Assembly: GCA_002900995.3 (NCBI GenBank) | Contig: CM035306.1 | Location: forward strand, 682,001 to 746,000 | Reading direction: 5' to 3' | Source of the DNA: Ganoderma boninense | Taxonomy: Eukaryota; Basidiomycota; Agaricomycetes; Polyporales; Polyporaceae | DNA length: 64,000 nt | In this document: positions 12,001 to 34,735 of the stretch, in pieces | Layout: the number at the start of each line of letters is the position of its first letter | Numbering within the stretch: the stretch's first letter is position 1 | Program-made: the position numbers and the translations under genes | The notes under the pieces: model-generated | Database searches by the model: none | Seen by the model: the letters and a program-made list of their open reading frames with translations, nothing else | What the model was told of the DNA's origin: nothing

Positions 12001-12400
12001 CGCCAGAGGGGAGTAAAGTCACGGGGGAGTACCAGTGAGGGTAAGCAGAAAAGGGGGGGGGGGTCGTTCCAATTCGCCCAGCGCTGACTTATATGAGCTT
12101 TGCAGGATGCATGCTGATTGGGCTGGCTCCTGGATTAGACTGGATTCACCCATGTGCGCACGTCGTCCTTCAAGGCACGTATGACGCACGCCCCGTGTTC
12201 GTGCGTTATCAGTTGGAACCTTTCCGATTGTGATTGAGGCGACCCCAGGCACTACCGTGGAATCACCTTTCCGAAGCACCCACTCGTCCTCGTCCTGAGT
12301 CCCCTTTCTGGCCTCTCCAGCCCCTCGAGCACCTTCGCTGTCCTCCTTCTCGCTCACCTATCTGAGTCTCCTCAGGCGTCACGCACGGAAGAAAGCCACC
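12001..12400. promoter_or_regulatory. Divergent promoter region between passenger gene and transposase
   Basis: A 400-bp interval between two opposite start codons. It contains a G run (about 12052-12062) and pyrimidine-rich tracts leading to the plus-strand ATG at 12401 (context CCACC ATG C). No TATA box stands out. Its promoter role is inferred from geometry only. Confidence 0.4.
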
Positions 12401-14494: not shown

Positions 14495-15793
14495 CACCAT
14501 ATGTTGTGGTATTGATACATCATTTTACGGTTATCTCCCAGGAGTGTTTTACATCATATTACGGTTAAATGCATGATGTATCATAAGCCCCCGGGGCTTA
14601 TGCCGGATTCTACCCAATTAGGCAAGGCCTCCTCCGGGGCCTCCAGGGAGAGCCCCCATGCTTATCTAAGCCCTCCCGGGCCTGCTGTGGCTGTACTCTT
14701 TTGCTACTCCCATCAATCCTTGCCTCCCGGGCCTGCTGTGGCTGTACCTTGTTGTTCCTGCCATCAATTCTGGCCCCCGGGCCTGCTGTGGCTGTGCCCC
14801 CTTGCTTCTCCCATCAATCCTGCCTTCCGGGATGCCTCCTCCCATCAAATATCAACCTCCTGGCTTCCCTGGCCCAATTAGGCAAGTGCCCAGTGCCTGG
14901 GAGGTGGGAGACCTTGTTCCCCTTGCTGTTAGGCCATTCCTGGGCCGTTTCCCTTCATTGTAGGTGCGTTCTGTTCGCATTTTAAAGGCGAACAAAATGT
15001 ATATACTCAGTTACTACATAGTGGCCCCTACCCAGACCCATAGTGCCCCCTTAGGATCGACCTAGGGGGCACTGTTTGGTAAATATCTCTTCCGTTTCTT
15101 GGCCGTTTTGGGCGCATGAGGGCTCATTGGATTTGCATTTTGAATACGCACCTAACGAGCCCTCATTCGTCCAAATCCGTCCAGCGGTCGTCCCGGAGCA
15201 GATACCTTTTCCTCCTGGGGAGCAGGTATCTGTATCTCAGCAACCCCTGGACCGTTTGCCTTGCTGTTTGCACTCACCTGTACATCTGTTGTACTGCATT
15301 TCATGCAATGTATTCAGTTGTACATTGATAGTCAGCCCATCATGCAGGATGCCCATCAGTATGCAGCCTCTCCTACTTCGACGGCCCATATCTCCACAAC
15401 GCATGGGCCGTTTTTTGTGCCCGTGGTACGCCTGGAAAGCCCTTACTCAGAGCTTTCTAACGAGCCCCTGAACGTCCCAAACGGACCACTGGTCGTCCCG
15501 GGAGGCCAACCCTCTCCTCCTACCTCTATTTTATACTCATCCATCTATATCTCAGGCAGTTTCCCACCGTTTCCCCTCATCTCTTTTGCATCGTAGATGT
15601 GTATTTACCTGCTACCTGAATCCATGATTATATTTGTTATCAGGCCAGTGGATCTATTTGGGCTCCCTTATCAGTATCCTCACAGTATACACCCTATGCC
15701 CCCCTTGGCCCACTATGGATAGGACATGTAATAGGTCGACTAAATAGAGCTAAATGAGGGCTATCCAACGCAACAAGAATCATGCAAAACGGT
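14495..15793 (+). repeat. Left arm of the foldback element
   Basis: Reverse complement of 15940-17237. Near the outside it carries a ~62-bp tandem unit repeated about three times (14665-14835; core CCCGGGCCTGCTGTGGCTGT with CCATCAAT spacers). Further in lie short palindromes such as AAGCCCCCGGGGCTT at 14585-14599. Confidence 0.85.
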
Positions 15794-15939
15794 CAAGTAT
15801 TGGCCTAGTTATGATGTTTTCAACTCCAATAGACCCACTGTATAACAGTAAGACACTCCGGGCAAGTGTCTTAACCCGGAAGGCAGGGTCTTAAACCAGC
15901 TAACAGGAACTGTTCATGCTATAAGTTGGCTTCCTCTCA

Positions 15940-17237
15940 ACCGTTTTGCATGATTCTTGTTGCGTTGGATAGCCCTCATTTAGCTCTATTTAGTCGACCT
16001 ATTACATGTCCTATCCATAGTGGGCCAAGGGGGCATAGGGTGTATACTGTGAGGATACTGATAAGGGAGCCCAAATAGATCCACTGGCCTGATAACAAAT
16101 ATAATCATGGATTCAGGTAGCAGGTAAATACACATCTACGATGCAAAAGAGATGAGGGGAAACGGTGGGAAACTGCCTGAGATATAGATGGATGAGTATA
16201 AAATAGAGGTAGGAGGAGAGGGTTGGCCTCCCGGGACGACCAGTGGTCCGTTTGGGACGTTCAGGGGCTCGTTAGAAAGCTCTGAGTAAGGGCTTTCCAG
16301 GCGTACCACGGGCACAAAAAACGGCCCATGCGTTGTGGAGATATGGGCCGTCGAAGTAGGAGAGGCTGCATACTGATGGGCATCCTGCATGATGGGCTGA
16401 CTATCAATGTACAACTGAATACATTGCATGAAATGCAGTACAACAGATGTACAGGTGAGTGCAAACAGCAAGGCAAACGGTCCAGGGGTTGCTGAGATAC
16501 AGATACCTGCTCCCCAGGAGGAAAAGGTATCTGCTCCGGGACGACCGCTGGACGGATTTGGACGAATGAGGGCTCGTTAGGTGCGTATTCAAAATGCAAA
16601 TCCAATGAGCCCTCATGCGCCCAAAACGGCCAAGAAACGGAAGAGATATTTACCAAACAGTGCCCCCTAGGTCGATCCTAAGGGGGCACTATGGGTCTGG
16701 GTAGGGGCCACTATGTAGTAACTGAGTATATACATTTTGTTCGCCTTTAAAATGCGAACAGAACGCACCTACAATGAAGGGAAACGGCCCAGGAATGGCC
16801 TAACAGCAAGGGGAACAAGGTCTCCCACCTCCCAGGCACTGGGCACTTGCCTAATTGGGCCAGGGAAGCCAGGAGGTTGATATTTGATGGGAGGAGGCAT
16901 CCCGGAAGGCAGGATTGATGGGAGAAGCAAGGGGGCACAGCCACAGCAGGCCCGGGGGCCAGAATTGATGGCAGGAACAACAAGGTACAGCCACAGCAGG
17001 CCCGGGAGGCAAGGATTGATGGGAGTAGCAAAAGAGTACAGCCACAGCAGGCCCGGGAGGGCTTAGATAAGCATGGGGGCTCTCCCTGGAGGCCCCGGAG
17101 GAGGCCTTGCCTAATTGGGTAGAATCCGGCATAAGCCCCGGGGGCTTATGATACATCATGCATTTAACCGTAATATGATGTAAAACGCTCCTGGGAGATA
17201 ACCGTAAAATAATGTATCAATACCACAACAGCAGCTG
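15940..17237 (-). repeat. Right arm of the foldback element
   Basis: Inverted copy of the left arm, with very few mismatches by eye (for example at 17190 and 17211). The two arms could pair over about 1.3 kb, either as single-stranded DNA or in a read-through RNA. Confidence 0.85.
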
Positions 17238-17244
17238 GATATCT

Positions 17245-17458
17245 GGGATCGTCCCCGAGGAGGTTGTACGCGCTATGGCCGCCTTTTTGGAATTTTGTTA
17301 CATAGCACGAAGAGCGTACCTCACGGACTCGACACTGGCACAGATGGAGGCCGCACGACTCAGGTTTCATCAGTATCGCACCGTCTTCCAGACAAGCGGA
17401 GTTCGCCCTGACGGTTTCTCCCTCCCACGCCAACATTCTCTTGACCACTATCCACAGC
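17245..17458 (+). pseudogene. Plavaka-type transposase, middle fragment
   Basis: Continues the transposase frame: SGIVPEEVVRAMAAFLEFCY, then RLRFHQYRTVFQTSGVRP and DGFSLPRQHSLDHY, a strongly conserved family stretch. It is cut at 17459 by the 3' LTR of the Gypsy element. From memory of the family, roughly 55-60 residues expected before the next fragment (32505) are missing, together with the outer ~16 bp of this LTR. This suggests a deletion across the junction. Confidence 0.75.
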
Positions 17459-18554
17459 CGGTCTGGACTCCGCTAGGATACTGCGGGATAGAGGCTGAGG
17501 TGGAGTGACACCGTGGATGGGGCAAAGACCAACGAGTCCGTCACTGAGGGTGCGAGGAAGGTGGTCGGCTCTCGCGAATAGACCGAGGGACGTGTGGACG
17601 ATCCGAGGGACGGTGGATGATGGAGACAACGACGTACGGACGTCGTGCAGGAAGGGGACGAGAACGCTGGAAACGGATGGGAAACAAAAGGAAAGGGGGA
17701 CAACACACCCGTGAGGCTTTCGCTACCTCCGGGACGAGTGCGCTATCGGAAGAAGGCGCGATGATGGGTGAACGCGGGATCGGGGAGGTCGGAGACTTCG
17801 TAAGCGTCGAGAGTCCACGCGCGGACTACCCGAGCGATCTCGTATACGCTACGCTTGCGCGGTGAGGATGAGAGTGAGTGAGCAGATGGTCGCTGTCGAG
17901 TCGATGTCGGCCGGGGGAGGAATTCGCTATCCTTCCGTCGAGTCAGATCGTAAGCGTGGGGTGCCAAAAGCTCCCTAATCATGGGGAGCGACGGGTATAT
18001 ATACAGGAACGGGACGGGACCCGCGTGGTCCGACCTTCTACTACTACTACGCGAAAATGTCCTCCTCCGCTGGAATCACGAGCCCCTCCCGGAGTCCCGC
18101 AGACTCCGTAAGCCTCGACTTGTGCGCCACCGGTCTATGAGCTAGCTGGGCCTCGTGCGGCGGATCGACGCGTATAGGTCGCGGAGGCCGCGTCTTGAGC
18201 GCTTGAGTGCGACGCGTCGCGACACGGTCACGTGTACGCGTCGGGCGCCCGAGGACCAGTCGACGGAAACTAGGGGACAAGTCTTGATCTCGAACGGGGG
18301 TCCGTCCCCTCTCGATCCACCTGTCGCCGGTAGTGGAGACTACACGCGAGGGATGCACTCGGAAACTTCGGGGAGTGCGGAGTCAGCGGGACCACCGGGA
18401 AACTAAAGGGGGCTTCGGATGGTGGCTTCGGGGGCGTGCGTTCGGAACAGGGGGGGGGCGCGGGTCGAGTGCCTTCCGAGGGTGCGGACTCCTCGGTGCG
18501 AAAAGTGGGGGCATTTCGGGGGTTTCGGAGCATGGAGAGGCACCGGGCCTATCA
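17459..18554 (-). repeat. 3' LTR of the Gypsy element (outer end truncated)
   Basis: Direct repeat of 31408-32504. The inner end reads TGATAGGCCC on the minus strand. The outer end lacks about 16 bases that are present in the other LTR (31393-31407). A TATATATA sequence lies near 17997-18003. On the plus strand its edge lies 147 bp before the first cargo ATG, so it could act as an antisense promoter for the cargo (inference). Confidence 0.85.
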
Positions 18555-18591
18555 CCTCCCCCTCACTGAAATCTGAACCGTCCTCGGTTCA
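18555..18591 (-). promoter_or_regulatory. Polypurine tract and adjacent hairpin at the 3' LTR
   Basis: On the minus strand a stem TGAACCG / loop AGGA / CGGTTCA (18591-18574) is followed by GATTTCAGTGAGGGGGAGG, which directly abuts the LTR start TGATAGG. The position and purine content are those of the plus-strand primer of LTR elements. A second copy lies at 24455-24497. Confidence 0.75.
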
Positions 18592-18660
18592 GCGAGTCCC
18601 GCGCCAGGGTGACTTCGTCGCGCCATTCTTCGGTTCCGGGGTGATTTACCGCCTTCGAGA

Positions 18661-18666
18661 TATAAG
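18661..18666 (+). promoter_or_regulatory. Probable TATA box of cargo gene A
   Basis: TATAAG located 35-40 bp upstream of the ATG at 18701, inside the retroelement but on the opposite strand to gag-pol. Confidence 0.45.
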
Positions 18667-18700
18667 GCGAGATGCGGCGAGGTGGAAGCTGCATCGAAAC

Positions 18701-19376
18701 ATGGCTATACTCGGCATTTCCTCCGTTCTCGACGAGATCTTCACTCTGTCCGGCAGCGTTCGCCCTGCTCTCGATCATCGCATCGAAAGTCTTGTCACTT
18801 CGTTCGAGGCGATAACCCCCGAGAACGATTTCGACGAGACTAGCCTCCGCCGCAAGGTGCGCACCTTGGCATACGACCTTGTAAGTTTGTTCCTGTTCTC
18901 GGGCGGAGGCATGCTGACCACCGGCTGCGTAGGACCTCCGTGCCCTTCTGAGCGTTCATGGTCGCGCCGCTCCCGAAGTCGTCGAATGGGTCCGGCGCGT
19001 GTTCGAAGCCGCGTCTCTCCTTGATGATTACGGGGGCTACGTTTCCCTTTTCGAAGAGGAGTACCATCGTCTCCGCGACGAACGGCTGTCGTTTGCCAAC
19101 GCTCGCCGCCTTGCACGGGCGGAAGAGGCCCACTTCCTTGGCAACGCGCTCCGCGCCGCGGTCTATCGTTCTGGCCTGGGCGACCCGACGGTGACTGCCC
19201 GGATCGATGCTGCGATGGACTGGACGTCCGAAGAACTGCGCGGCGCGCGTTTCGAGAGATCGAGCATGTCCGCCTTCGCCGTCCATCGGTTGGCTAGCTC
19301 GGTCATGGCCAACGCCGCTACCGAATTAGACGAAATGGGGGGCGATGACGACTCTGGGGCCGACATGGGCTTGTGA
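18701..19376 (+). CDS. Cargo gene A of the Gypsy element (antisense, hypothetical)
   Basis: Two exons, 18701-18880 and 18933-19376, give 207 residues. The intron has GTAAGT, a CTGAC branch-like site and TAG, and it contains a frame break, so splicing is needed to join them. The protein is mostly helical-looking (MAILGISSVLDEIFTLSGSV; VVEWVRRVFEAASLLDDYGG; ARRLARAEEAHFLGNALRAA) with an acidic C-terminal tail. No known domain is recognised. It lies antisense to the retrotransposon, first in the cargo after the LTR. Because it is antisense, its intron cannot be removed from the genomic RNA of the element and would survive retrotransposition. Confidence 0.6.
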
Positions 19377-19665
19377 TTTGAAGGCTAGACCCGAGGTAGC
19401 GAGGGAGGGAGACGGAGGATGTCGCGAAAGGTTGTCGTCGATCGTTCGGACGTCTCGGAGGATTGTTAGGGGTGGAGGGGAGTGCGGGGGGGTGCGCGAA
19501 GGTTCGGGACTAGGGCAGATTTGCGACGCGCCGTCTGTAGACTAGTTTCCGGAAGAAATTGTTCCAACGCGCGACTGCTTGTTATGGAGGTGACATTTGA
19601 GGGTCGTCGGAACCGCCTGGCTTGAGCATGAGTGCGCACCCCGGGAAGTCCGACCGTTCTTCCGG

Positions 19666-19672
19666 TATAAAG
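19666..19672 (+). promoter_or_regulatory. Probable TATA box of cargo gene B
   Basis: TATAAAG about 47-53 bp upstream of the ATG at 19719. Confidence 0.5.
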
Positions 19673-19718
19673 GGCACCAAGTCGGTCACTCTTATTCTTC
19701 CGTAACCCGACACCTCCC

Positions 19719-20348
19719 ATGGACGACGACTTGCAGATGTTCGAAGAAATTCCCGAGCTGTCGACCGAAGAGGCCGAGAGCGAATACGAAAGCCTCACCC
19801 TCAGCAGCTTCGACCTTCTCGAACGCTCGATCAACCGCGCGATTGGCGACCTTTCGATGGACATAGGCTGCGGCAACGAGCGCGCGTCCATCCTCCAAGA
19901 GAAACTTTTTACCGTGGTGCAGGAGTTGGTGCGTCCCTTTCCCATTCGAAGGCCGTTTTCTCGCTGATGCTTCCTCGACCGCTAGACCTTCCTGGCCCGG
20001 TTCGCCAGTCGCAACGAAACCTTCGAGACCATGTTCCAACGCCTGCGGGGTACCGTTGCGCTTGCCCCGGTCGGATACGGGCTTGCGCCGCTTTTCGCGA
20101 CCTGGACGTCCGGCTTGCAAATGACTACTCGCCTCGCGCTTCTTCGCAGCCGCGTTGAGGACGCAAAGAAGAGCCGCGACGACATGGACCGCCTCGACCT
20201 CCTCTTCCGCCACCTCGACGAACCTCCCATCCTCTGGTTACACCGCATCGTAGCCCTCCGCGTCCATATTCATCGTCGCTACACGCACGCGAGCCTCGAA
20301 TTGGACACGTACCTCCGCCACCTCGCGGATGGCCTGACAAACGAGTAG
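19719..20348 (+). CDS. Cargo gene B of the Gypsy element (antisense, hypothetical)
   Basis: Exons 19719-19928 and 19986-20348 encode 190 residues. The intron is GTGCGT...GCTAG and contains stops, so it must be removed. The N-terminus is acidic (MDDDLQMFEEIPELSTEEAE); the rest looks alpha-helical, with FLARFASRNETFETMFQRL and LRSRVEDAKKSRDDMDRLDL. No catalytic motif or known family is recognised. It has its own TATA-like sequence, and its size and exon structure match genes A and C. That suggests a set of related accessory genes, although I cannot demonstrate sequence homology among them by eye. Confidence 0.6.
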
Positions 20349-20675
20349 GGGAGATTCTTTTTGGGGCGGGGCAGGCGGAATGCGCGGGGCCGTCGGGAAA
20401 AGGCGTAGGTTGCGGGGGACTGCGTACGGGGTTGGGGAGACGTGTCGAATCGCGAGGTTCGGTCGGGTTTACTTGCCAGGTTCCGCCTTGTTGGAAATCC
20501 AGTAGTCGCGGAATCGACAGTTTGTACCCCGTAGTACTTTGAACATGAGGTTGCGAGGTGCGCGATACGCCAGGGGTGCGTTCGGGAGTGGTCGAGAAAT
20601 AGACTCAGAGTGGACATAAGAAACCACCGGCCGCGCGCAGACCAGACGGCACATTCGCTTCCTTTTCTCCCCGCT

Positions 20676-21368
20676 ATGCGCCTTCCTACTACCAATCCAG
20701 AGCGCGCGGAGCTTCTTGAGGAGGTACTGCCTGCGCTCCATCGTACCATCAACGCCGACCTCGCGCGCGCAAGCTTCATCTCCGAGGATCCCGCTCGCGC
20801 GCTCTTCCCGAGTTCACAGGAGGTTGCGCAAATCGCGCGGGCTATCGTAAGTCGTGGTTCCTTCCCTTTGGTAGGCTATGCGTTGAGCTTCGTTCGCCCA
20901 CAGGCCCTTCACGGGTGGCTGTCCGTATCCGGTTTTCATAACGCGCCGTGGTGGAACGCGCTCCTTCGCCTTTGCGAACGCGCTCCTACCGACCATCCCG
21001 TTCGCGCGCAAGTCCATGGCGCTCTCGTCGACATCCAGTACCGGCTTATTGAACGCGAGCTCCTCGAGCACGCGCACGATACCGCCCGCGCGTACTCGAC
21101 CGATCTTGGTTTAGTGGACGCCCTTGACCGGCTCGGTTGGCGGTTCAGTAGTCTCGCGAGCCGCGCCAGAGTTCTAGTTGCTCATTCGGAAGGCGAATGG
21201 GTGGGTGCGGTTCAGGCGCTCGCTTCATTCCGTTATGGGCGCTCCGTCGCGCGCATTGCGAATCCGGAAGTCCTTTGGATGGAAGGGGAAGGCTCTTGGG
21301 ACGCGTCCGGCTGGGGCTACGATCCGGACCGGCTCTTCACGAACTTCGCTACCGCAGCACTTCGATGA
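20676..21368 (+). CDS. Cargo gene C of the Gypsy element (antisense, hypothetical)
   Basis: Exons 20676-20846 and 20904-21368 give 211 residues. The 57-bp GTAAGT...CACAG gap is a multiple of three and open, so an unspliced 230-residue form is also possible. Notable segments are ERAELLEEVLPALHRTINAD, GFHNAPWWNALLRLCERAPT, IQYRLIERELLEHAHDTARA and a Trp/Gly-rich end (WMEGEGSWDASGWGYDPD). No known domain is recognised. It shows the same opposite-strand placement and high CG use as genes A and B. Confidence 0.55.
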   Translation: MRLPTTNPERAELLEEVLPALHRTINADLARASFISEDPARALFPSSQEVAQIARAIVSRGSFPLVGYALSFVRPQALHGWLSVSGFHNAPWWNALLRLCERAPTDHPVRAQVHGALVDIQYRLIERELLEHAHDTARAYSTDLGLVDALDRLGWRFSSLASRARVLVAHSEGEWVGAVQALASFRYGRSVARIANPEVLWMEGEGSWDASGWGYDPDRLFTNFATAALR

Positions 21369-21444
21369 GGGGACCGCGGGAAGTGTAACTAGTCTTTCGC
21401 GATCGTAATCGAGCGTCTTGCCTTATCCCTCTCTTCTCTCCGTC

Positions 21445-21942
21445 ATGGCCTCCCCTCTCGCTCCTCTCCTTACTCGCGTTCAGGCCTCCGACTTCGAGCT
21501 CGACGCCGAGAACGCGCCCGAGATCACCTCCGGTTTCCTTTCCGCCATCCGCCGCCTTCCCGACCCCTCTCAACTTCCCGATGCCGATTTCGAGGGCGTG
21601 TTCGAGTTGTATACGGCCGCTGTGGCGGCGCGTCGCATTGCCCGTGAGGTGGCGGAGGAGTTCCTTGCTGAGTACTCGATGGTCTCGCGATGTGCTAAAG
21701 CTGACTTTATTGCACGCGCGTGTGGGAAGTACGCGAAGGTGGTCCGGCTGGCGGAGGTGCGAGTAGGTGAGTTGAAGTCGCAGCCCCCCGCGGCCGAAGG
21801 CGACGCGCGCGCGGACCAGAAGCTCGCCCTAGCCGGGGCCGAGAGGGATTTGCTCGACGCGTCCAGTGAACTCGCCAGTCTGAAAGCGAAGGCTGCGCTC
21901 GCCGACGCGGATCGTACGCCCTTTCTTCTCTCTCTCGTGTGA
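21445..21942 (+). CDS. Cargo gene D of the Gypsy element (antisense, coiled-coil hypothetical)
   Basis: One open frame of 165 codons from ATG 21445. It is Ala/Glu/Leu-rich with coiled-coil character in the second half (AEVRVGELKSQ; LALAGAERDLLDASSELASL). A possible donor (GTACGCC at about 21913) and acceptor (GACAG) could join it to sequence up to a GTAAGC at 22038, just before gene E. D may therefore be the first exon of E rather than a separate gene. No family is recognised. Confidence 0.45.
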   Translation: MASPLAPLLTRVQASDFELDAENAPEITSGFLSAIRRLPDPSQLPDADFEGVFELYTAAVAARRIAREVAEEFLAEYSMVSRCAKADFIARACGKYAKVVRLAEVRVGELKSQPPAAEGDARADQKLALAGAERDLLDASSELASLKAKAALADADRTPFLLSLV

Positions 21943-22082
21943 CAGCGCGCTAACGTACCGCTCGGACAGGGGCCGCTGCTTGTGCGGACAACTCCTACCA
22001 TCCCCGTCTCCTTCTCCTGCTCTCGGACGCACGCAAGGTAAGCAGACAGCAGATTCCCTCGACGGACCCTCCGCCTCGATTG

Positions 22083-24074
22083 ATGATTCGCTTGCCTGGG
22101 AAGCCTCCCGCCAAATCGGAGCCCGCCAAGCCTGACGCGTCGGAGAAGACCCCCCGGCGTACTCGTTCCGCCGCTCCAAAGTCCGCGTCTCCTGCCGTCG
22201 CTCGAAAGCCTACCGCCCGGATGTCCACGAGCGGCCCAAAACCAAAACCTCGTCCTTCCAAGAGTCGCGGAGGGCCCGACGACGAGTACGACGAGCTCGA
22301 CCCTTCAGACGATGATGAGGAAGGTGCCGAGGATGCCGACGACGCGAGCCCTTCGGTTCGTCGCAAAGGCAAGGGAAAGGGCTCCTCCGCCCATTACGAA
22401 TCGCTCGTCGACTCCCCAGAGCTCGCTTCGAAGCGGGACGCTTTCGAAAACCGGGCCTTGTTCTTGGCCTGGAAAGACGATGCCGAGGTTCGTTTCTTTC
22501 GCCTTCTTTGCGCCTTCTGAAATTCCGCAAGGTCTGACCCCCTTTTCCAGTGCGACATGTGCGTCAAGAACGGCGAGCCTTGCAAGCCTAGCTTGGACAA
22601 GGGACGCGTGCTCTGCGACCGCTGCCGGGGCAAGCACGACAAGTGCACCCACTGGGGGCGAAACTGCAAGGGGGAGGTCAAAGGGGGCCCCCACCGCAAT
22701 ACTCCCGTCGCCATCTTCAACGGCCTCGGGTACTCGTTCTCGTCCGCGCTCTCGCAAATCCAGCGCGCTTGGGCCGAAGCGGTCGTTCACTCGATCGAAG
22801 ACTGTCCTGAAGCCAACGAGCTCGTCGAGGTCGACAACGAGGGCCTATTGCGCTGCGTTCGGCGCGCCCGGACTGTGACCCTCAAGGAAGGATCGAGTAA
22901 GGCCAACTCCGTTTTGGTGACGTACTCGCCCACTTCACGCGCGCCCACGGAGTACCTGTTCGACCGGTCCACGCTGCCCCAGTACAACCCTCGTCTCCTC
23001 CCGGCCTACGTCGACCTCGACGAGGCACGCCTGCTTACCGCCACAGCCGCTCCGGCGGACGATCCCGCGGCCGGAATTGCAGCGGTTGCTGAGGCGCCGT
23101 CGACGCCGAGCTCGCCTGTTCCTCGTCGGTCTCGCCGCGGCCACCCTCCCGGCGTTCGCGAGCTTCCAGAGAGTTCGGCGAAACCCTCGCCCATCGTCGT
23201 CAAGATCGAAAAGGTCGCGCCCTCCTCGAAACGTCCTCACGAGGAGTCTAGTCCGGTGCCCTCGCTCGCCCCGAGGAAGAAGCGCACCCGCGTCGTCGAG
23301 TCCGAGGAGGAGTCCGCCGACGATATCGCCGCAATTCCGGAGGCCGATCCTGAAGAGCCCGAAGGGAAGACTTCCGGCCGTCTTCGTCGCTTGACCCGTA
23401 CTCGTCCCGCGGATCGCGACTCACCGGTGAGCACATTCTGTCGCTTGTTCGTAGCCACCGCTCACGCCGCCTGCCAGGCTTTCCTTGGTCACACTCCCGC
23501 CCCCGCCACCGTGGATCCTTCCGAATTGGCGGTCGAGGAAGCTGTCGCGCCGCCCGAGGACGAGCTCCCCCAGCTATCCGATGGTGGTGTCCCGGAGGCC
23601 GATCCCATCGTCGAGGGCTTCGAGGGTCCTGCTTCCCCGTCCATCGCGGGCGCTCAGTTGCCCGAGCCTGCCACTCCTGCGGATCCCTTGTCTGTTGCTC
23701 CTCCTGGCAGCGCGACGGCGACTACCCTGTCGCCCAACTTCGTCTTCCCTCCTCTTCGCTTGCGAGTGCGCGACCTTCGCGAGCTCGACATCCACGTCCA
23801 AGAGATTCGTGCGTCTTGGGCCGGGGCTGTCTCTCGCGAGTTCCTCAGCCAGTCCCAGCAGAGGGAGTGGGCTCGTCGCGAGGAGGAGCTGACTGGGGAG
23901 CCCTTCGGCTACTATTCGTCTGCGGACCTCCCTCGTCTCGACTTGGAGTTCGAGCGCACCATTTTCCGGGGCCTAGCCGCCAACTCTCTCGAGGAGATCA
24001 ATTCGAGGTATCCTCCTGATGAGGGGGACGTGCGCTCTGGTCTCGGAGGTCGGTCTCCTACTGCTTCCGAGTAA
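22083..24074 (+). CDS. Cargo gene E of the Gypsy element: Zn(II)2Cys6-like cluster protein (antisense)
   Basis: Exons 22083-22487 and 22551-24074 encode 642 residues. The N-terminus (about 1-120) is Lys/Pro/Ser-rich, then acidic. Exon 2 begins exactly at a cysteine cluster with spacing C-x2-C-x6-C-x10-C-x2-C-x6-C (about residues 136-167; CDMC, C, CDRC, C), the spacing of fungal Gal4-type binuclear zinc clusters, here internal rather than N-terminal. The intron separates the basic N-terminus from the cluster. A large disordered, acidic and Ser/Pro-rich middle follows, then a helical C-terminus (LRVRDLRELDIHVQEIRASW; QQREWARREEELTGEPFGYY). DNA binding is an inference from cysteine spacing. It ends 25 bp from the last codon of the opposing pol frame. 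Confidence 0.65.
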
Positions 24075-24454
24075 GGTAGCTGACGGACCCTTCGTCGGTT
24101 AGGGCACGGCTTGGCGTTGGCGTGATTCCCGGGGTCGTTTTGTACTGTCGAACGCTTCTTCGCATGTTTTTTCGTTCTGGTTCCCTTGCGTCGTCATCGT
24201 CTTCTTCCTCCTTTGTCCCCGGACGGACTCGCATCTTGGCATCCCGCGTCGCTCGCTCTCCTCCGATCCTTGCGCTTCGTGAAAGGTAAAGTGTTGAAAG
24301 GTCTGTTTGTTTTTCTGTTCGTACGTATTCTTGGAAATAAAATAGCTGTGTGCTGGAATTGGCGTTTGCGTGCCTTGGAACTGAATGGTGCACACAACTG
24401 CACATGATGCGAAGAAAAACGGAAAGGCGATTGAATTCATAGTGGTATCCTGTA

Positions 24455-24497
24455 TACCCCCCTCCCCCTCACTGAAATCGCGACTGTCCCCAGTCGT
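24455..24497 (-). promoter_or_regulatory. Second polypurine tract and hairpin, between pol and the cargo
   Basis: On the minus strand a stem (A/C)GACTG / loop GGGA / CAGTCGC is followed by GATTTCAGTGAGGGGGAGG, extended by further G residues. It matches 18591-18555 over the 19 purine-rich bases and in hairpin placement, but the stem sequences differ. It probably marks the original 3' end of the retroelement or an internal priming site. Confidence 0.6.
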
Positions 24498-27400
24498 GGT
24501 GACGCTCAGCAGGGTGGTCGGTGGGCTAGGGGAATTGATGTCGTATCTGTCGACTTCTTCAAAGTCGTCGGCTCCTTCGCCCTTGTCTTCGGAAGCTTCC
24601 AGTTCCCGGATTCGGAGGGAATCGGCGTCCAGCCATTCGCGCGGGACAGCGATGGGTTCCTTGCGCGCAAAATAAGGGATGACTCTGAACGCTGCAGTCG
24701 GGCGGTCGAACACCGTGCCGTCCAACTCCGCTAGTATGTATGCTCCGCCGCGATTGCGGGATACAACGGTGTATGGTCCCAGGTAGCGTGGACGCATTTT
24801 GCGATTGAGACTCTTCTCGATTGCTGTGTTGCGCAAAAGTACGAGGACGCCTGGTTGATGGTCGAAGTCCTTGATCGTCGTTCTGTGTTTGTCTTCGAAC
24901 TCTCGGGCCTCCTTGACTCGGGTCTCGTATATCTTGGAGCGCAATTGCGCGACGTCTTCTGCTCGCTTCTGGAGGGCGATCGCACGTTGCGCAATTAATT
25001 CAGCTGTAGCGAGCAGGGATTCGGGAGGTGGTACTAGGTACGTGGCTTCGACAAAGTCGAGGGGCAGTACCGGATGACTGCCGGTAATTGCGAAGTATGG
25101 GGAACAACCGAATCGCCTTCTTCGGGTGGCACGTTCCGACCAAAGGACCGTATGCACAAAGGCGTGCCAGCGCGTTCCGTCCCCTCCTGATGCCTTGAAG
25201 AGGGCATCGCGGACCGGAAAATGTGGCCGCTCGACTATCCCGTTTGCCCGCGAGTTATAGCCTGAGACACGGATGTGGTGTATGTGATACTTTTGGGCGA
25301 GGTAGTCGCACGCCTTCACCCACGGAGCACCATTGTCGGTAACCACTTCGGACAACGCTCCCCAACGGCTCAAAACGTCTTGGAAGAGCCATTCTCCGAT
25401 GGCTTTCGCGGTCTCCGTAGTCAACGCGCGGCCTTCCGGCCAAGAGGTCGTTGCGCACCGGGCGTGCACGAAATACTTGTATCATCCTGGCATGGCCATG
25501 GAGTCGGCATGAATTCGCATCATTGGGGATAATGGGATTGGGACCGTTGGAGGAATTAGGACGTGCGTAGTCTGCCTCGTCTGACAAACATGGCAAGTCT
25601 TCACAAACCAATGCACATCCGATTTTATGTCCGGCCACCAGAAGCGTTCGCAAGCGAAAGACGTGGTCGCAAAAGTTCCGCGATGTCCGAGTCTATCGTG
25701 AAGTTCCACTAGGACCTCGGGCCTTCGACCGGAGTCGACAACCAGTTTCCGAATTCCTTCATGGTGTCTTTTCCACAAAATGCCTCAAGCGTCGAGTAGG
25801 AATTGACTAGCGAACTTGTAGAATCCCTTCCATTGCTTGTCCGACATGCCCGACGGGCGCTTGGGGCTATCCAGGAAGTCTCGTACTTGAGGAATGAGTG
25901 AGTCCAGCCTCTTTGCTCGTTCGGACCTAGGGAATTGGTCGTACGCCGGTGTGTCCGTCATGATCGGCGCGGATTGCGGAGGATTCCCGAGTGCGAATAC
26001 TGCGAGCGGTTCGGAGGTCTGCGGGAGTGCGACAGCGAGGTCGCATATGTCTTCCGTGCCTACCGGCTCATTGATGAATTGCAGCAGGCCATGCACCCGG
26101 TCGATCCAATCGTCGAAGTCATCGTCCTCTGGTTCCGGGTCACCCGGCTGTCGCGGACGTCGTGAAAGGCCATCCGGAGCGTGTTTTTCGCCCGGTACAT
26201 GTACGATCTCGAAGTGGAACATGAGGATTGCCATGATCCATCGATTTATGGCCGCCGAGGGTTCCAAATCCGGGTTCGCTAACATGCCCTTGATATAACG
26301 CGCGTCGACTTCGACGATGAACTTTCGGAGACCTATGAGCCAGAACTTGAGAGCTCGGAGCGCCCGGAAAAGGCCATAGAGTTCCAGTTTGGGCTGCGAG
26401 AAACGACTTTCCCGTTCGTTCAAGGTGATGCTTCCGAAACGATTGTAGTACCTAATTCTCGGATTGCTTGGGTCTTGTTGACACAACAAATAGCCGACGG
26501 CGATGTAGGAGGTGTCAACTCCCAAGACGACCGGGGCTCCCGAGTCGTAGTCGAGTGGCTTGAGCGCGGGACTTGCCAACAGCGCTTCTCGAAGGTCTTC
26601 CACTGCCTTCCACTGTTGTTCTCCGAACTCAAAAGGTACGTCCTTTCTTGTGAGGTGTACCAGGGCATTCGCCCGCTTCGCGAAATTCTTGATGAAGATT
26701 CGAGCAACCCCGATGGTTCCTAAAAAGGCGCGGACATCTGAAAGGGTTTCGAATTTCGACCAATTCCGTACGACCCGGACGCGGTCATCGTCTGGCAGCC
26801 GGCCTACCGAGGTGCAGCGGTGTCCGATGATGATCAAATCATCGTCGATTATAACCGCCTTTGGTCCCGAGAATGTTCCTCCTGCGTAGCGCATGCGGTT
26901 GATGATTCGATTGACGTTCTGGAAATGCTCCCAGACAAAGCGACGTATTCCCGGGTTCTCAGGTATCGTCTCATACGTCCCGTCCTCGTTGCGATATTCC
27001 GATTCCGGACCGCGTAAAGGAACGTCGTCGACATACGGAACCGTGAAGTCCGGGATCTCCGGTTGGAGGATGTATGTCACGTCGTCATGGAAAATCGGGA
27101 CGGAGTTCGTCCACCCCATGGGCAAAGTGGTAAGTCGGTGTGCGCCGAACGGGGTTTGGAATGTTGTGAGGTCGCGCGAACTTTCCGCTAGTTCTCGCTC
27201 GTCATACCCCACATACAAGTCGAGTACCCCGATGCATGCGCGCCCTGCAAAGCGCTCGACCAAGTGTTCCGGTACGGGTGGTACTCCCGAGTGCTGGATA
27301 GTGACCGCATTCAGTGGCTCCAAACTATGCACGATTCGTGGTTTCCCGTCCTTCTTAGCCACCGTGAACCACCGCGACTTGTAGGCGGAATTCGAAGGCT

Positions 27401-28201
27401 CATAGACCCCCGCAGCGATCTTGCGCTTGATCTGTTCGCAGACTTCCTTGTAGATCCCCGGAGGAATCGGGATGTTCTTGAGCACCCATGGCTTGTGTTC
27501 GACCGTCGGCATTGTGACCGGAGGGAAGAATTCGGATTTGAACTTGCCGCGTTCGGAATCATTCCACGCGAAAGCCATTTCCTGGTTCCGGATCATGTCG
27601 TCGAGCAGGTCTAGTTCCGCAGGCCATAGGAATTTCTCGTGTCTAGCTCGGAGCTCATCCCGGCGCTCGGTCGTGTATCTTTTGCCGGGTTTGAACTCCG
27701 AGGGCGGATGAGGATTGAGCGGTGGGAGGTCCGCGAGTGGATCCCCCGGAATGTTTCGAACGATTCGATACTTGTCGGGTAATTCGGAGAGTAGGGGTCG
27801 AATCTTTTGCGCTACCGGTTTGTATTTCTTCTTTGCGGTCGCAAAAGATTCGAGTGGTGAAGTCCGAGGCATGGAAGTCGAGACGTCATATATGGGCTTA
27901 TAGTCTAGATTTTCGGCGATTGCTAAGAAACCTGAGAACGAAGGGGCCTGATGAGTTGAGGGAACCGAGAATTCATGGTCTTGCGCAAATAGAAATGAGT
28001 CGAATGGTAAGTCGGTACTGGTGAGGTTTTGGAAGTCACCCTCGGGTATAATCCCTTCGTCGCATGCCGAGAGATAAGCAAGGGTGACGGAGGAACTACT
28101 ATCGTCGGCGAGTGGGGTATACGCAGCGATCTTCGCTTCGCCCGACCGATGGTCGTATTCGACGATGAGGGCTGCAGATTCGCCGTCGTCCAGTAATTCC
28201 T

Positions 28202-30697
28202 CTAGGCTCGAAAAACCGCGGGCGTGGCCATCTTCGAGGCCTTCTTCTCTCCCCGAGGGGTAGTAGCAACTCTCGCGATTGCTCCTGTGTTCGGACAATG
28301 CATGGTTACTAACTGTTCCTCCTCCGATGGATTCTCCACCTTGAGTTTGACGAGCGTCTCGAAAGGTCTTCCTAGGAGGACTTCATATGCCGTTGTGCGA
28401 ACGACATACATTTGCAGGTGGACCGTGATGTCTCCGGGTACACGCACCGGGACATTTCGTGCGAGGCCTATGGTTTTGTCGATTGCGCCGTTCGCTGAGA
28501 TTAGCGGGATCCCCGCAGTTGGATCGACGGAGATCCTGAGGCGGTTGCAGCAGCTCTCGCTGATCGCCACTATCTGCGAGCCTCCGTCCAAGACACACTC
28601 GACGACCGCGGTCTCGTTGACTGTACACCATAGTGTCCGAATGAGGTGCCGGTCCTTTGCTGTCACAACCGGGTCCACCTGCTCGTCGACTCCTAGAGAA
28701 AATTCCTCTGCCACTCCTTCGCTTCCTGGGTCTTCAACAACTTCGGAGTCTTGTAGCTCCTCGAACCTTGCTGCTTCATCGTCCTCTTCCTCGTCCGGTA
28801 CCGTCTCCCAGAACACCGTGTATCCCCTTGTCGCTTGATTCGGGGGGACGGGAGGCCTTGGAATGCTCCCCTGCGTAACTTTCGGATCTTCCGGACGTGA
28901 CACCGGAACTCGACGAATCGCGGTGTCGTTGTGAATGGCCTTCCGCAATGCATCGTGCGAGGTGATGAGTTCGCCGAGCTCGCAAGAGACCTGCGTTTTG
29001 TATACCGCTTCCTTCAGGTTGTTTACCGCGTTCGGGCTACCATAAGTAACTTCGTTCCGGTAGGCAGGCGTGTTTCGGACGCCCGCTACGCCCCGCATTG
29101 GTTCTGCTGGCTTCGCGTGCAACGGAGAGGGGTCCGTCGCGTCCTTAGCTTTCGCGTACGGATGGAGCGGAGTCGCGCTCTCGGAAGCAGCAACATTCGG
29201 CTGGGGTGGCCTCTGTGTTACCGGTCGCTGAAGGTCCGTTGATGGCGAACCTTGCCGCGGCCCCGAAGGTCCTGGAGTGGGTGGGCGCGGGGTCGTCCTG
29301 TCCGCTGTTCCAACATTCGCCGGTCTTGTAGGTGTGGCAGCCTTTGGTCCCGGTGGAACCCCGCGTTTCCCAGTGAAAGGTCTGGGGCGCTGGATTATTT
29401 CAACACCGTCGAAGCGCAAATTTGACTTCTTCTTTGCGGCAACCTGAAGCTCGTTGATCTGGCACTGCAGAGCCTCGAGGGCGTCGGCGTCGCTCTCGGA
29501 CAAAGGCGGTTGGTGCGAATCATCCATCAACTCGTAATCTTGTTCGTCCGGGGTGGACAACTCCAGCAGCATATGGTCTGCGCCTGGTTGTTCCGCGCGC
29601 TTCGCATCGAGGTAAAAGTTCACCTTCTCCCGTAAAGTTCCTTGCCCGAGGTGGTACGGAATCGGATTACCATCGTACATGACTAGCATCCCGTTCTCGC
29701 GCTTGATCTTTCGGGCATTGATGTCTTCCGTGGCTTCCGGGCACCTCCGGGTTTCGCAACCGTCTGCTCCGCAATAGTAGCATCCTTTTCGCGGAGTCGG
29801 AGGTCTCGGAGGTAGATCGCGCCGAGGTCCTCCCCCGTTCGGTGGCGGAGTACGCGTAGCCGCACGTTCCGGAGGAGACGGGTTCGACGCCGGTTTGGGC
29901 AACATAGCCGCTAGGGTACTGACCAGCTGTTTCGAGATCAGGTTCGCGAATGCACTTGCGTCTTCTTGCTTGATCCGGGGAGCCACACTCGGCGCACGCG
30001 TCGCTGTGGGTGCTTGTAGTCCTCCTGTTCCTCCGGTACTCCCTATCGGGCCGGTCGTCTCCCAGATGTCGTCGAAGTCGTCGTTGCGGTGTTGTAGTAC
30101 GTAGGTCGCCGCCTTGTGGAACTGTTCGAACGTGTAGGGCGTGTTTGCCGTACGGTTTGGGACGTCATTTTCCAGACGTGCCTTGACAGCTTCCCTGTGC
30201 GAAGTCCCGAGGGCCCGAGCGAGTGCCTTGTTCGCCTCGATATTGTTGATCCGGTTCTTGCCCAGGAGGTACTTTACTACCGGCCGGAGTTCGACGTAGA
30301 ATCTCGAGTATTCGTTAAGGTCCTTGACGGCGCCGGCTGCGACCCGTTTGTCGACCAAAGACTGCAGATCTTCGACAGTCCATTCGGGGGTCGTCGATAC
30401 TCCCGGATAGAGCTCGAAGACCGCCTTCTTGAAATCCACGTAAGTCTTGGTCGGCTCCGAGAATTCTTCTAAGGAGCTCCACGACGCTTCGATTGCCCAG
30501 GAGAGATACCTGACTGCAAAACTCTTCCTGTCGGTTTGCGCTGTCGCGTCGTCCGGGACTGAATGCTTGCGGAAGAGGGCCTCCAAGTCGGCGAAGTATC
30601 GACTCAAAGACCGGGGGTCCGCTTCGTCGAATACCGGACACGTCCGATCTCCTCGTACAGGCATCGCCTGCGGTCCAGCGTTCGCGCCTTGGCTCAT
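28202..30697 (-). CDS. Gypsy gag with zinc knuckle and aspartic protease
   Basis: From the first ATG (30697, MSQGANAGPQ) the frame runs 831 codons. A capsid-like helical region (about residues 25-190; RSLSRYFADLEALFRKHSV, WTVEDLQSLVDKRV) is followed by a zinc-knuckle-like CYYCGADGCETRRC (Cys where His is usual in CCHC knuckles). A long Pro-rich linker and a C-terminal retropepsin follow (about residues 705-800) with CVLDGGSQIVAISE in place of D-S/T-G and YEVLLGRPF. The protein forms the particle shell and processes the polyprotein (family knowledge). Upstream of 30697 the same frame stays open for over 230 codons without an ATG. Gag is intact, unlike pol. Confidence 0.8.
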   Translation of the reverse strand: MSQGANAGPQAMPVRGDRTCPVFDEADPRSLSRYFADLEALFRKHSVPDDATAQTDRKSFAVRYLSWAIEASWSSLEEFSEPTKTYVDFKKAVFELYPGVSTTPEWTVEDLQSLVDKRVAAGAVKDLNEYSRFYVELRPVVKYLLGKNRINNIEANKALARALGTSHREAVKARLENDVPNRTANTPYTFEQFHKAATYVLQHRNDDFDDIWETTGPIGSTGGTGGLQAPTATRAPSVAPRIKQEDASAFANLISKQLVSTLAAMLPKPASNPSPPERAATRTPPPNGGGPRRDLPPRPPTPRKGCYYCGADGCETRRCPEATEDINARKIKRENGMLVMYDGNPIPYHLGQGTLREKVNFYLDAKRAEQPGADHMLLELSTPDEQDYELMDDSHQPPLSESDADALEALQCQINELQVAAKKKSNLRFDGVEIIQRPRPFTGKRGVPPGPKAATPTRPANVGTADRTTPRPPTPGPSGPRQGSPSTDLQRPVTQRPPQPNVAASESATPLHPYAKAKDATDPSPLHAKPAEPMRGVAGVRNTPAYRNEVTYGSPNAVNNLKEAVYKTQVSCELGELITSHDALRKAIHNDTAIRRVPVSRPEDPKVTQGSIPRPPVPPNQATRGYTVFWETVPDEEEDDEAARFEELQDSEVVEDPGSEGVAEEFSLGVDEQVDPVVTAKDRHLIRTLWCTVNETAVVECVLDGGSQIVAISESCCNRLRISVDPTAGIPLISANGAIDKTIGLARNVPVRVPGDITVHLQMYVVRTTAYEVLLGRPFETLVKLKVENPSEEEQLVTMHCPNTGAIARVATTPRGEKKASKMATPAVFRA
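28211..28217 (-). promoter_or_regulatory. Candidate -1 frameshift site between gag and pol
   Basis: GGTTTTT on the minus strand, read as G GTT TTT in gag, lies ten bases before the gag stop, within the gag-pol overlap. Shifting by -1 here continues into pol. It is not a perfect X-XXY-YYZ heptamer, so its function is an inference. Confidence 0.35.
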
Positions 30698-31372
30698 GAT
30701 TGGATGGGGGTTGATGAATGGTTGAGGTAGAAGCTGGTTCGATAATTGTGTGACGACCGGGGGCGCAATCACCACCGGTGGCAAGGTATGAGTAGTTCGT
30801 GGGGTCGAATGTATCGGAGCTCTTGACGCCGAGTCAGGACACTCGATAAAGTCTTCTTGATCTTGTATTGATGTGAGTTCCGAGCCAAACGTGTCGTCTG
30901 CCCCGAAGTCGGTAGGTATGTGTTCTGTAATTGCGGGAACGTCCGAGAAATGGTCTCGCGCGTCGTCGAACTCTTCGATCGAATTTCCGGATAGGTCCTC
31001 GTCGAATTGTTGATCGTCGTCGGTAACCCAGGTAAAGGTGTGAAAGTCGAAACGTAAGGTGTCGCTTGGACTAGGTGTATCGCCGGACTCTGGCGTCGAC
31101 CACGGCGAAACGGTTGGGGTAGGTTCTGACGAACCTTCCGACGTCGGAGGAGTCAGCGCAAAGGTTGCGGTTCGAGGTGAGTTCGGCACCGGTTGCGTCG
31201 GTGTCGGAAGTGTGAGATGATTCGGAGGGTCAGGAGGATTCGAAGGTTGTCTCCTTTGCAAAACTCCCGAGAGTTCCGCGAGATGTCTGAGGTCTGACAG
31301 GAACTCTTGATCTTCCGCAAGCGGTAAATTTGCTGTCTGTCGGTTAATCGCGAAGGAATCCGACTGGGCCCC
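30698..31372 (-). other. Gypsy leader, open in the gag frame without ATG
   Basis: Between the primer-binding site and the gag ATG the gag frame is open throughout. It encodes Ser/Thr/Pro- and Asp/Glu-rich sequence (NSPRTATFALTPPTSEGSSE; DLSGNSIEEFDDARDHFSD). It could be an untranslated leader, or a gag extension begun at a non-AUG codon. Confidence 0.45.
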
Positions 31373-31389
31373 CCTCGCGGTGGGCTCCA
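31373..31389 (-). promoter_or_regulatory. Primer-binding site of the Gypsy element
   Basis: TGGAGCCCACCGCGAGG on the minus strand begins three bases inside the 5' LTR and starts with TGG, the complement of a tRNA 3' CCA end. The matching tRNA is not identified. Confidence 0.65.
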
Positions 31390-31392
31390 AAA

Positions 31393-32504
31393 TGATATAC
31401 TGACAGACGGTCTGGACTCCGCTAGGATACTGCGGGATAGAGGCTGAGGTGGAGTGACACCGTGGATGGGGCAAAGACCAACGAGTCCGTCACTGAGGGT
31501 GCGAGGAAGGTGGTCGGCTCTCGCGAATAGACCGAGGGACGTGTGGACGATCCGAGGGACGGTAGATGATGGAGACAACGACGTACGGACGTCGTGCAGG
31601 AAGGGGACGAGAACGCTGGAAACGGATGGGAAACAAAGGGGGAAAGGGGGACAACACACCCGTGAGGCTTTCGCTACCTCCGGGACGAGTGCGCTATCGG
31701 AAGAAGGCGCGATGATGGGTGAACGCGGGATCGGGGAGGTCGGAGACTTCGTAAGCGTCGAGAGTCCACGCGCGGACTGCCCGAGCGATCTCGTATACGC
31801 TACGCTTGCGCGGTGAGGATGAGAGTGAGTGAGCAGATGGTCGCTGTCGAGTCGATGTCGGCCAGGGGAGGAATTCGCTATCCTTCCGTCGAGTCCGATC
31901 GTAAGCGTGGGGTGCCAAAAGCTGTATAATCATGGGGAGCGACGGGTATATATACAGGAACGGGACGGGACCCGCGTGGTCCGACCTTCTACTACTACTA
32001 CGCGAAAACGTCCTCCTCCGCTAGAATCACGCGCCCCTCCCGGAGTCCCGCAGACTCCGTAAACCTCGACTTGTGCGCCACCGGTCTATGAGCTAGCTGG
32101 GCCTCGTGCGGCGGATCGACGCGTATAGGTCGCGGAGGCCGCGTCTTGAGCGCTTGTGTGCGACGCGTCGCGACACGGTCACGTGTACGCGTCGGGCGCC
32201 CGAGGACCAGTCGACGGAAACTAGGGGACAAGTCTTGATCTCGAACGGGGGTCCGTCCCCTCTCGATCCACCTGTCGCCGGTAGTGGAGACTACGCGCGA
32301 GGGATGCACTCGGAAACTTCGGGGAGTGCGGAGTCAGCGGGACCACCGGGAAACTAAAGGGGGCTTCGGATGGTGGCTTCGGGGGCATGCATTCGGAACA
32401 GGGGGGGGCGCGGGTCGAGTGCCTTCCGAGGGTGCGGACTCCTCGGTGCGAAAAGTGGGGGCATTTCGGGGGTTTCGGAGCATGGAGAGGCACCGGGCCT
32501 ATCA
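31393..32504 (-). repeat. 5' LTR of the Gypsy element
   Basis: 1112 bp bounded by TGATA...TATCA, a 5-bp perfect inverted repeat with canonical TG/CA ends. It contains a TATATATA sequence near 31948-31954. The flanking transposase frame resumes immediately after 32504. Confidence 0.85.
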
Positions 32505-34018: not shown

Positions 34019-34172
34019 ATGATCGTGACCGCAGTCTGCGTAATCCACCAGCACGATGCGACGGGGGCGGTGCTGTAAGCGCCCCGCCCTTCCAAATCGG
34101 GTGTGGCATTCAAACTCCGTCACCGACTCTGCGTTTTGCCCAAGTGCGTTGAACTTGGGCGCGTCGAGTCGT
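34019..34172 (-). repeat. Inverted repeat copy 1 (about 150 bp)
   Basis: Nearly the reverse complement of 34585-34735. The shared core includes GCGCCCCGCCCTTCCAAATC and TTTTGCCCAAGTGCGTTG. The copies are separated by about 410 bp and differ by a few bases and short insertions. The unit may be a mobile fragment or an inverted duplication of the region upstream of the kinase-like pseudogene. Confidence 0.65.
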
Positions 34173-34584: not shown

Positions 34585-34735
34585 CACGACACGATGCGAC
34601 TCGACGCGCCCAACGCACTTGGGCAAAACGCAGAGTCGCGACGGAGTTTGAATGCCACACCCGATTTGGAAGGGCGGGGCGCTTACAGCACCGCCCCCGT
34701 CGCATCGTGCTGGGTGGATTACGCAGACTTCGTGA
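34585..34735 (+). repeat. Inverted repeat copy 2
   Basis: Partner of 34019-34172. It directly precedes, and may overlap, the 5' end of the phosphotransferase-like pseudogene. Confidence 0.65.

Follow-up and report, generated by a model that had tools for sequence, protein, structure and literature searches.

The window analysed here is a stretch of 64,000 nucleotides from the basidiomycete Ganoderma boninense (contig CM035306.1, positions 682,001 to 746,000), which lies on contig C3 of the 55.6-Mb genome that was searched. At about 17454-32504, it contains a Ty3/Gypsy long terminal repeat (LTR) retrotransposon of about 15 kb, whose gag-pol is encoded on the minus strand. Four plus-strand genes—A, B, C and DE—lie antisense to gag-pol in the interval separating pol from the 3' LTR, and this block is bounded on both sides by a repeated unit composed of a hairpin and a polypurine tract (PPT). 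There is very little doubt in our minds that the block is a resident accessory cassette of this Gypsy lineage; its conservation, both from copy to copy and across related families, makes a functional role in the element probable.

Four antisense genes between pol and the 3' LTR

Gene A (18701..19376; 207 amino acids), gene B (19719..20348; 190 amino acids) and gene C (20676..21368; 211 amino acids) each contain one phase-0 intron (18881-18932, 19929-19985 and 20847-20903, respectively, the last one in frame), and gene DE (21445..24074; 819 amino acids) contains three (21914-21969, 22488-22550 and 23427-23477). Removal of these six proposed GT-AG introns of 51-63 nucleotides (nt) opens the frames of all four genes, and a branch-like CTNAY motif is found 17-22 nt ahead of the acceptor in five of the six. 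The intron of A, B and C follows after 57-70 codons, likewise in the A and B homologues of two related loci, L052 and L053. Treating D and E as two genes was rejected, as splicing of the three introns results in a single 819-amino-acid frame; the L052 homologue of DE is also a single frame. TATA-like boxes are present at -40 of gene A (TATAAG; 18661..18666) and at -53 of gene B (TATAAA; 19666..19671), and none of the kinds searched was found ahead of C or DE. The ATG of gene A, at 18701, is 147 bases from the LTR; at the other end of the cassette, 262 bases past the stop of DE, an AATAAA (24336..24341) is the putative poly(A) signal of that gene. All of these features are on the plus strand.

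A sequence-only reading of the same DNA had already proposed a ~15-kb Gypsy element with gag-pol opposite to its cargo, intron-like gaps in the cargo genes including an in-frame one in C, TATA-like boxes for A and B, a cargo start 147 bp from the LTR, and a zinc-cluster motif in E; these claims agree with the LTR pair, the minus-strand frames, the Ty3-type reverse transcriptase (RT) and the gene features described here. It had further counted five antisense cargo genes between pol and the 3' LTR, for which location, strand and introns were borne out but not the number, since D and E are one gene and the cassette, thus, holds four.

The zinc cluster of DE is encoded from 22551 and comprises six cysteines; a basic cluster resembling a nuclear localisation signal is also present. 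The Zn(II)2Cys6 motif is spaced C-x2-C-x6-C-x(5-12)-C-x2-C-x(6-8)-C, and this spacing is found in all five DE-type proteins examined, each of which has the six-cysteine motif, with a middle spacer of 8-10, together with a basic cluster. An intron just ahead of the zinc cluster is at the same point in DE of the window, in the L052 homologue (with the same GTTCGT donor) and in paralogues on contigs C14 and C13. Given the six-cysteine motif and the basic clusters, a nuclear DNA- or chromatin-binding regulator is the best guess for DE; that it is such a regulator of the element itself is proposed tentatively, at somewhat less than even odds. A PDB profile search of DE gave a best E of 0.09, which is not meaningful, and a search with the conserved DE region matched the query alone, so that the DE family is not traced beyond Ganoderma. 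Within this genus, the G. sinense protein GSI_03697 is one 987-amino-acid model spanning C and DE, with 35% identity over 98% of DE. When GSI_03697, the window E exon, the C frame and the RT were scanned against NCBIfam, a single match, of E 0.24, was returned.

The other three gene products are small and are probably helical partners. For exon 2 of C, an AlphaFold2 model from a three-sequence alignment is all helical, with a mean predicted local distance difference test score of 55, and is too poor for fold searches. A common origin of A, B and C is suggestive only and is not claimed here; hhalign comparisons among them reach E 0.0007-0.006 at a probability of 6-26%, with reversed controls at E 0.16-0.55, and all three share the phase-0 intron.

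Copies, related families and selection on the cassette

As a test, the sequence-only reading had asked whether several full-length insertions have the module in common at one position. This is the case: two further full-length copies carry the whole module at the corresponding position, one on contig C17 (99% identity) and one on contig C1 (97%; C1:5171198-5186454, L019 and L020). In both of them, the GT-AG ends of all six window introns are kept, in agreement with the earlier argument, which we judge sound, that antisense orientation protects the introns. Between the window and the C17 copy, synonymous and non-synonymous changes number 2/0 in A, 0/1 in B, 4/1 in C and 9/1 in DE, summing to 15/3 in 1426 module codons, compared with 18/15 over 2231 codons of gag-pol. 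If three quarters of the changes were expected to be non-synonymous, the chance of three or fewer among 18 would be about 3e-7. The module frames are under purifying selection. Together with the sharing between full copies and the recurrence in related families, this upholds the earlier view of an accessory module rather than a random host fragment. The C1 copy has 45 synonymous and 58 non-synonymous changes and an insertion of about 450 bases in DE, and it lacks 25930-28960, which includes the RT; its module looks broken.

Selection is also indicated for the B genes of a second family, for which the ratio of non-synonymous to synonymous substitution rates (dN/dS) is 0.13-0.31 in all six pairs of four genes (that of L052 and three taken from seven other B loci that are complete or almost so); the B gene at C15 has an internal stop. 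As opposite-strand controls, two of three frames gave higher values, namely 0.7-5.7. One might suppose that regulation is exerted by the antisense RNA as such, with the reading frames being incidental; the portion of PMC7264820 available to us offers a precedent in that antisense RNA regulation is discussed for such elements. However, substitutions in the plus-strand frames concentrate at third codon positions (24 of 34 in B between C12 and C14) and the intron borders hold, and we consider this idea highly improbable.

A genome search with the RT frame, in which 52 of 323 candidates were scored and the counts are hence lower bounds, uncovered antisense module genes downstream of pol in every one of at least nine loci with 800 or more residues matched (9/9, window and C17 copy included). 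Among at least 15 loci with 600 or more pol residues at 58% or more identity, the module was found in 11. The pol of the related families is about 60% identical to that of the window, and their cassette homologues lie antisense at the same place; more distant pol groups, at about 46% identity, are also present (e.g., C10:77539). Gene content varies by family: the window has A, B, C and DE, L052 has A, B and DE, L053 has A, B and a gene X, and an E-type gene is found at C5, C10 and C22. The order A-then-B from the LTR side is kept in the window, L052 and L053, and compared with the L052/L053 pair by hhalign, window A and B reach probabilities of 85% and 96%, respectively, with window A about 27-28% identical to the A proteins of these two loci. 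When gene X of L053 was compared with A, B and C by hhalign, no relationship to any of the three could be established.

Among database proteins—the comparison base being one genome and few such proteins (P0001, P0002; P0003-P0007)—the G. boninense protein P0004, named "Ferrous iron transport protein B" at its source, is identical to the spliced second-family B at 118 of 130 residues and skips the same intron; it is presumably a gene prediction and not RNA-based. P0003, a 214-amino-acid second-family B frame, and P0001 read through introns. Viral contigs searched with the RT protein gave three pattern matches, none of which was confirmed.

Two related loci are rearranged. At C6:2525150 and C6:2582584, a second-family element is seemingly split, with pol, inner PPT and E on one strand and A, B and outer PPT 57 kb off on the opposite strand, which suggests an inversion. 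At L054, a coding block at 2900-5300, KDZ-like by eye, follows a truncated E gene, and the outer PPT is at C5:2821242; here, a nested insertion probably interrupts the cassette.

Could the cassette be a mere hitchhiker, either a host locus that was captured or a second mobile element nested in the first? DE-type genes, at about 46% amino acid identity, are indeed found outside hairpin-PPT pairs, namely at C14:78908-81456 and at two C13 loci, and no gag-pol match is contained in the 20-kb stretches examined there. However, these loci keep C-like remnants ahead of DE (at C13:618525, and weaker at C14), and two of the three have pol-like matches (35-45%) at a distance of about 9-19 kb, as expected of relics of elements. 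The position of the cassette is shared by three copies and by several families with about 60% identity in pol, and its frames are under selection. As a source of the cassette, no host gene or other element was identified. A mere hitchhiker is, in our opinion, improbable, and we hold to a resident cassette. The C14 and C13 loci are themselves part of a duplicated segment of about 15 kb carrying the DE-type genes (L021-L022, C14:76284-91513; L025-L026, C13:1029108-1045999; about 94-98% identity, one part 82%), a third copy of which covers 3.3 kb at 93% (L024, C13:615245-618557).

Hairpin-PPT borders and anatomy of the element

On the sense strand, each cassette border consists of a hairpin with an (A/G)GGA loop followed by a PPT, mostly TTTCAGTG...GGGGGAG. 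The outer unit (18555..18592, minus strand) has the hairpin CTGAACCG-AGGA-CGGTTCAG and adjoins the 3' LTR; the inner unit (24461..24498, minus strand) has the hairpin CGACTG-GGGA-CAGTCG and forms the right border of the cassette, which is, hence, more than a plain pol end. Over 19 bases, the two units are identical (18555-18573 and 24461-24479). In an alignment of seven units (three outer, four inner), 97.6% of the cells are paired, compared with 12-33% in slid controls, and four of the six base pairs carry compensatory changes on both sides; in 500 shuffles, three of five measures were above all shuffles, a result to be read for a small set and a structure derived from the same sequences as tested.

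Scanning the genome for the unit with up to two mismatches revealed 39 sites, and the reversed pattern revealed none. Adjacent same-strand pairs of less than 15 kb number 13, compared with 0.2 expected for random independent sites, related copies not being independent. Antisense module genes are enclosed by 12 of these 13 pairs, and the remaining one (C5:2802143-2809949) encloses pol. Unpaired sites number 14; C8:1136723 is unpaired only through its inner unit being above the mismatch limit, and two sites on C6 belong to the seemingly split element.

It is an even bet, as judged from the sequence, that both PPTs are used. Rather than acting as a primer, the inner unit could be what remains of the duplication that brought in the cassette, or could serve as a site at which cassettes are exchanged by recombination. 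Its position within the pol frame, away from an LTR end, would fit this, as would the retention of the borders when cassette content changes from family to family (A, B, C, DE; A, B, DE; A, B, X; an E-type gene). A passive relic, however, would not need the stem pairing and the G-rich tract, both of which are kept at all four inner copies aligned (4/4). We give this alternative appreciable weight, roughly that of a one-in-three chance, and prefer a priming role of the inner unit.

The rest of the element is that of a Ty3/Gypsy LTR retrotransposon. The 5' LTR (31393..32504) and the 3' LTR (17454..18554), both on the minus strand, are 98.2-98.5% identical; the 5' LTR ends in TGAT...ATCA, and of the 3' LTR the outermost roughly 10 bases are missing or replaced. 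A putative primer binding site (TGGAGCCCACC...; minus strand, 31375..31389, approximate coordinates), to which no tRNA was matched, lies 3 bases inside the 5' LTR. Three minus-strand frames follow: (i) a gag/aspartic protease frame (28205..31489), with a protease match of E 4e-6, just under Pfam's cut-off; (ii) an RT/RNase H frame of Ty3 type (25788..28382), which matches the solved structures of Ty3 Gag-Pol (7q5b, 9e-23) and of an RT/RNase H (4ol8, 1e-23) that we take to be Ty3, as well as the Pfam families RT_RNaseH_2 (2e-11, above cut-off) and RVT_1 (6e-5, below cut-off); and (iii) an integrase frame (24102..25481), the end of which crosses the inner hairpin-PPT unit and for which profile matches are weak (SH3_Tf2-1, E 0.007; integrase, E 0.02). 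The order protease-RT-RNase H-integrase is, with this weak integrase identity, that of Ty3/Gypsy elements. A chromodomain at the integrase C-terminus, by which chromoviruses are recognised, was not listed for this frame by Pfam at E up to 1.

Ends and flanks were examined for L009-L016 and the three full copies, out of 25 LTR matches. Intact LTRs show TGAT...ATCA ends, hence the TG...CA termini of LTR elements, and 4-base target-site duplications are present in the C17 copy (GCGT) and the C1 copy (GCGC). None was found at the window copy or at L015, the one solo LTR with its ends resolved.

Close to the element, at window 14502-17230, a 2.7-kb palindrome with arms of 1209 nt, 100% complementary and 311 nt apart, is possibly a fold-back mobile element; it is also present inside the C1 element copy, where it replaces 25930-28960. 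Coding remnants flank the retrotransposon at 12300-14400, 17240-17453 and 32906-33598. We take these to be KDZ/Plavaka-type DNA transposase-like, and by this label the retrotransposon has seemingly inserted in or beside a KDZ/Plavaka-like remnant. Perfect inverted repeats of 74 nt (34048-34121 and 34640-34713, 518 nt apart) possibly mark a small DNA transposon.

Proposed function and relation to known systems

Our best explanation of the whole, to which we assign a probability of about 0.6, combines a resident antisense cassette, two priming hairpin-PPT units and a regulatory DE. The gag-pol RNA from the 5' LTR would pass through the cassette to the 3' LTR, and reverse transcription would copy the cassette introns intact because their splice signals sit on the opposite strand. 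Plus-strand DNA would be primed at the two hairpin-PPT units that delimit the cassette, one at the pol end and one at the 3' LTR. Once the element has integrated, the genes of the cassette would be transcribed from their own promoters towards pol and spliced, with transcripts ending at the poly(A) signal ahead of the inner unit, and DE would act in the nucleus, on DNA or chromatin, as a zinc-cluster regulator of the element.

Several observations weigh against this explanation. No module piece scanned reached a Pfam cut-off (best E 0.026; exon 1 of A and of B not scanned separately), and scans of GSI_03697 and of the E exons of the window and L052 did not list PF00172 (Zn2Cys6) at E up to 1. 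In the second-family B genes, the third opposite-strand frame, which has 7-9 stops, shows a dN/dS of 0.15-0.36, as low as the plus frame. Small indels break the frame of DE in the C17 copy. In the C1 copy, insertions disrupt the frames of both B and DE although the LTR pair has 99.8% identity; we suspect that this copy may have transposed with a damaged module, fast damage after insertion being the alternative. At C7 and C41, LTR loci of the window family contain gag-side interior sequence, with no match to the module and none to the RT either, and a pol fragment from a broken copy of this family at C1:2366359-2368454 is without module. Four of the 15 related pol loci were without module in our searches, namely C2:4356290 and, covered by genome scans only, C5:3034278, C8:899434 and C2:3188772; in the stretch downstream of C2:4356290 (L055), neither an integrase match nor a significant module match was obtained (best E 0.57), and other coding sequence follows. 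L053 has no E-type gene, so that DE would be dispensable for some families. As to the borders, 40 of 500 shuffles reach the count of pairs changed on both sides and 481 of 500 the pair-type count, and the inner PPT has no adjacent LTR end.

A different role for the antisense proteins, namely to counter host silencing or to manipulate the host without regulating the element's own expression, also deserves consideration. Gag-pol RNA and cassette RNAs would be complementary and would, thus, feed double-stranded RNA silencing, by which a silencing suppressor would be favoured. Such overlapping opposite transcription would follow from the anatomy, and the strong divergence of the module proteins from one family to another is of a kind often seen in an arms race. 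However, nothing resembling a known suppressor was found, and the zinc cluster and basic clusters of DE point to the nucleus; this role is deemed unlikely, and a resident cassette with a regulatory DE is preferred. More speculatively, and with about one chance in four, the element may follow an ambisense design, in which template switching or recombination at the hairpin-PPT units would transfer the whole cassette from one Gypsy family to another, allowing a backbone to try different nuclear regulators or anti-silencing proteins.

If the proposed explanation is true, LTR retrotransposons could keep a multi-gene, intron-bearing compartment by antisense placement, which would extend the retroviral accessory-gene idea to fungal elements. 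At least four families in one genome provide a comparative set with which the role of antisense genes in LTR elements can be addressed, and with the paired hairpin-PPT units, both plus-strand priming and cassette capture become amenable to testing.

The novelty that the sequence-only reading had attached to such a module needs to be narrowed, given that antisense genes between pol and the 3' LTR have already been described in plants and in fungal Boty elements; its multi-gene, intron-bearing composition was not met with in the literature searched. Boty-like elements of Botrytis cinerea carrying an antisense gene, brtn, were reportedly described by Zhao et al. in 2011. The descriptions of Boty excerpted from PMC8365987 and PMC7264820 give one antisense gene, whereas four intron-bearing genes and duplicated borders are present here, which sets the two apart. 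According to excerpts of PMC11963269, PMC7264820 and PMC8365987, antisense open reading frames (ORFs) between pol and the 3' LTR are a hallmark of Retand and are also found in Grande, RIRE2 and Boty. In the plant elements Retand, Grande and RIRE2, they occur in most copies and their proteins may bind DNA, and gene23 of Grande is transcribed from its own promoter (PMC11963269, PMC7264820, in the parts available). The element described here shares with Retand the antisense ORF between pol and the 3' LTR; the TRP28 domain (PF04195), a Retand hallmark, is not listed in the Pfam scans of the module pieces given. The word intron does not occur in PMC11963269 or PMC7264820, and the hosts of these elements are plants, in contrast to the fungus studied here.

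With regard to the borders, PMC2829016 reports, in the portion available, that Sirevirus and Athila4/Calypso elements have additional PPTs in the region from pol to the 3' LTR, and that a stem-loop inverted repeat at the terminal PPT is proposed to guide primer formation. Multiple PPT copies in this position are common to both systems. In Sirevirus, however, the upstream PPTs are without inverted repeat and clustered near the LTR (same portion of PMC2829016), whereas here the hairpin is wholly upstream of the PPT and present on both units, which flank a gene cassette; furthermore, pol is of the Ty1/copia type there and the RT is of the Ty3 type here. For Ty3 itself, the PPT is placed in a paired region, and an upstream hairpin is unmentioned in the excerpt of PMC11381356. 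LTR elements of bdelloid rotifers resemble the present one in having a captured ORF3 beside pol, and the part of PMC5408684 available does not mention an antisense, intron-bearing multi-gene cassette. Tcn1-like fungal Gypsy elements were set aside as a parallel; the available text of PMC2864245 speaks of an "additional open reading frame", and the word antisense is absent from it. Among the matches listed from the open-licence PMC literature (titles and abstract starts, subscription papers lying outside this scope), none describes a fungal LTR element with an antisense cassette of several intron-bearing genes. Antisense extra genes as such are, hence, already known, and what is new here is the multi-gene, intron-bearing antisense cassette together with its duplicated hairpin-PPT borders.

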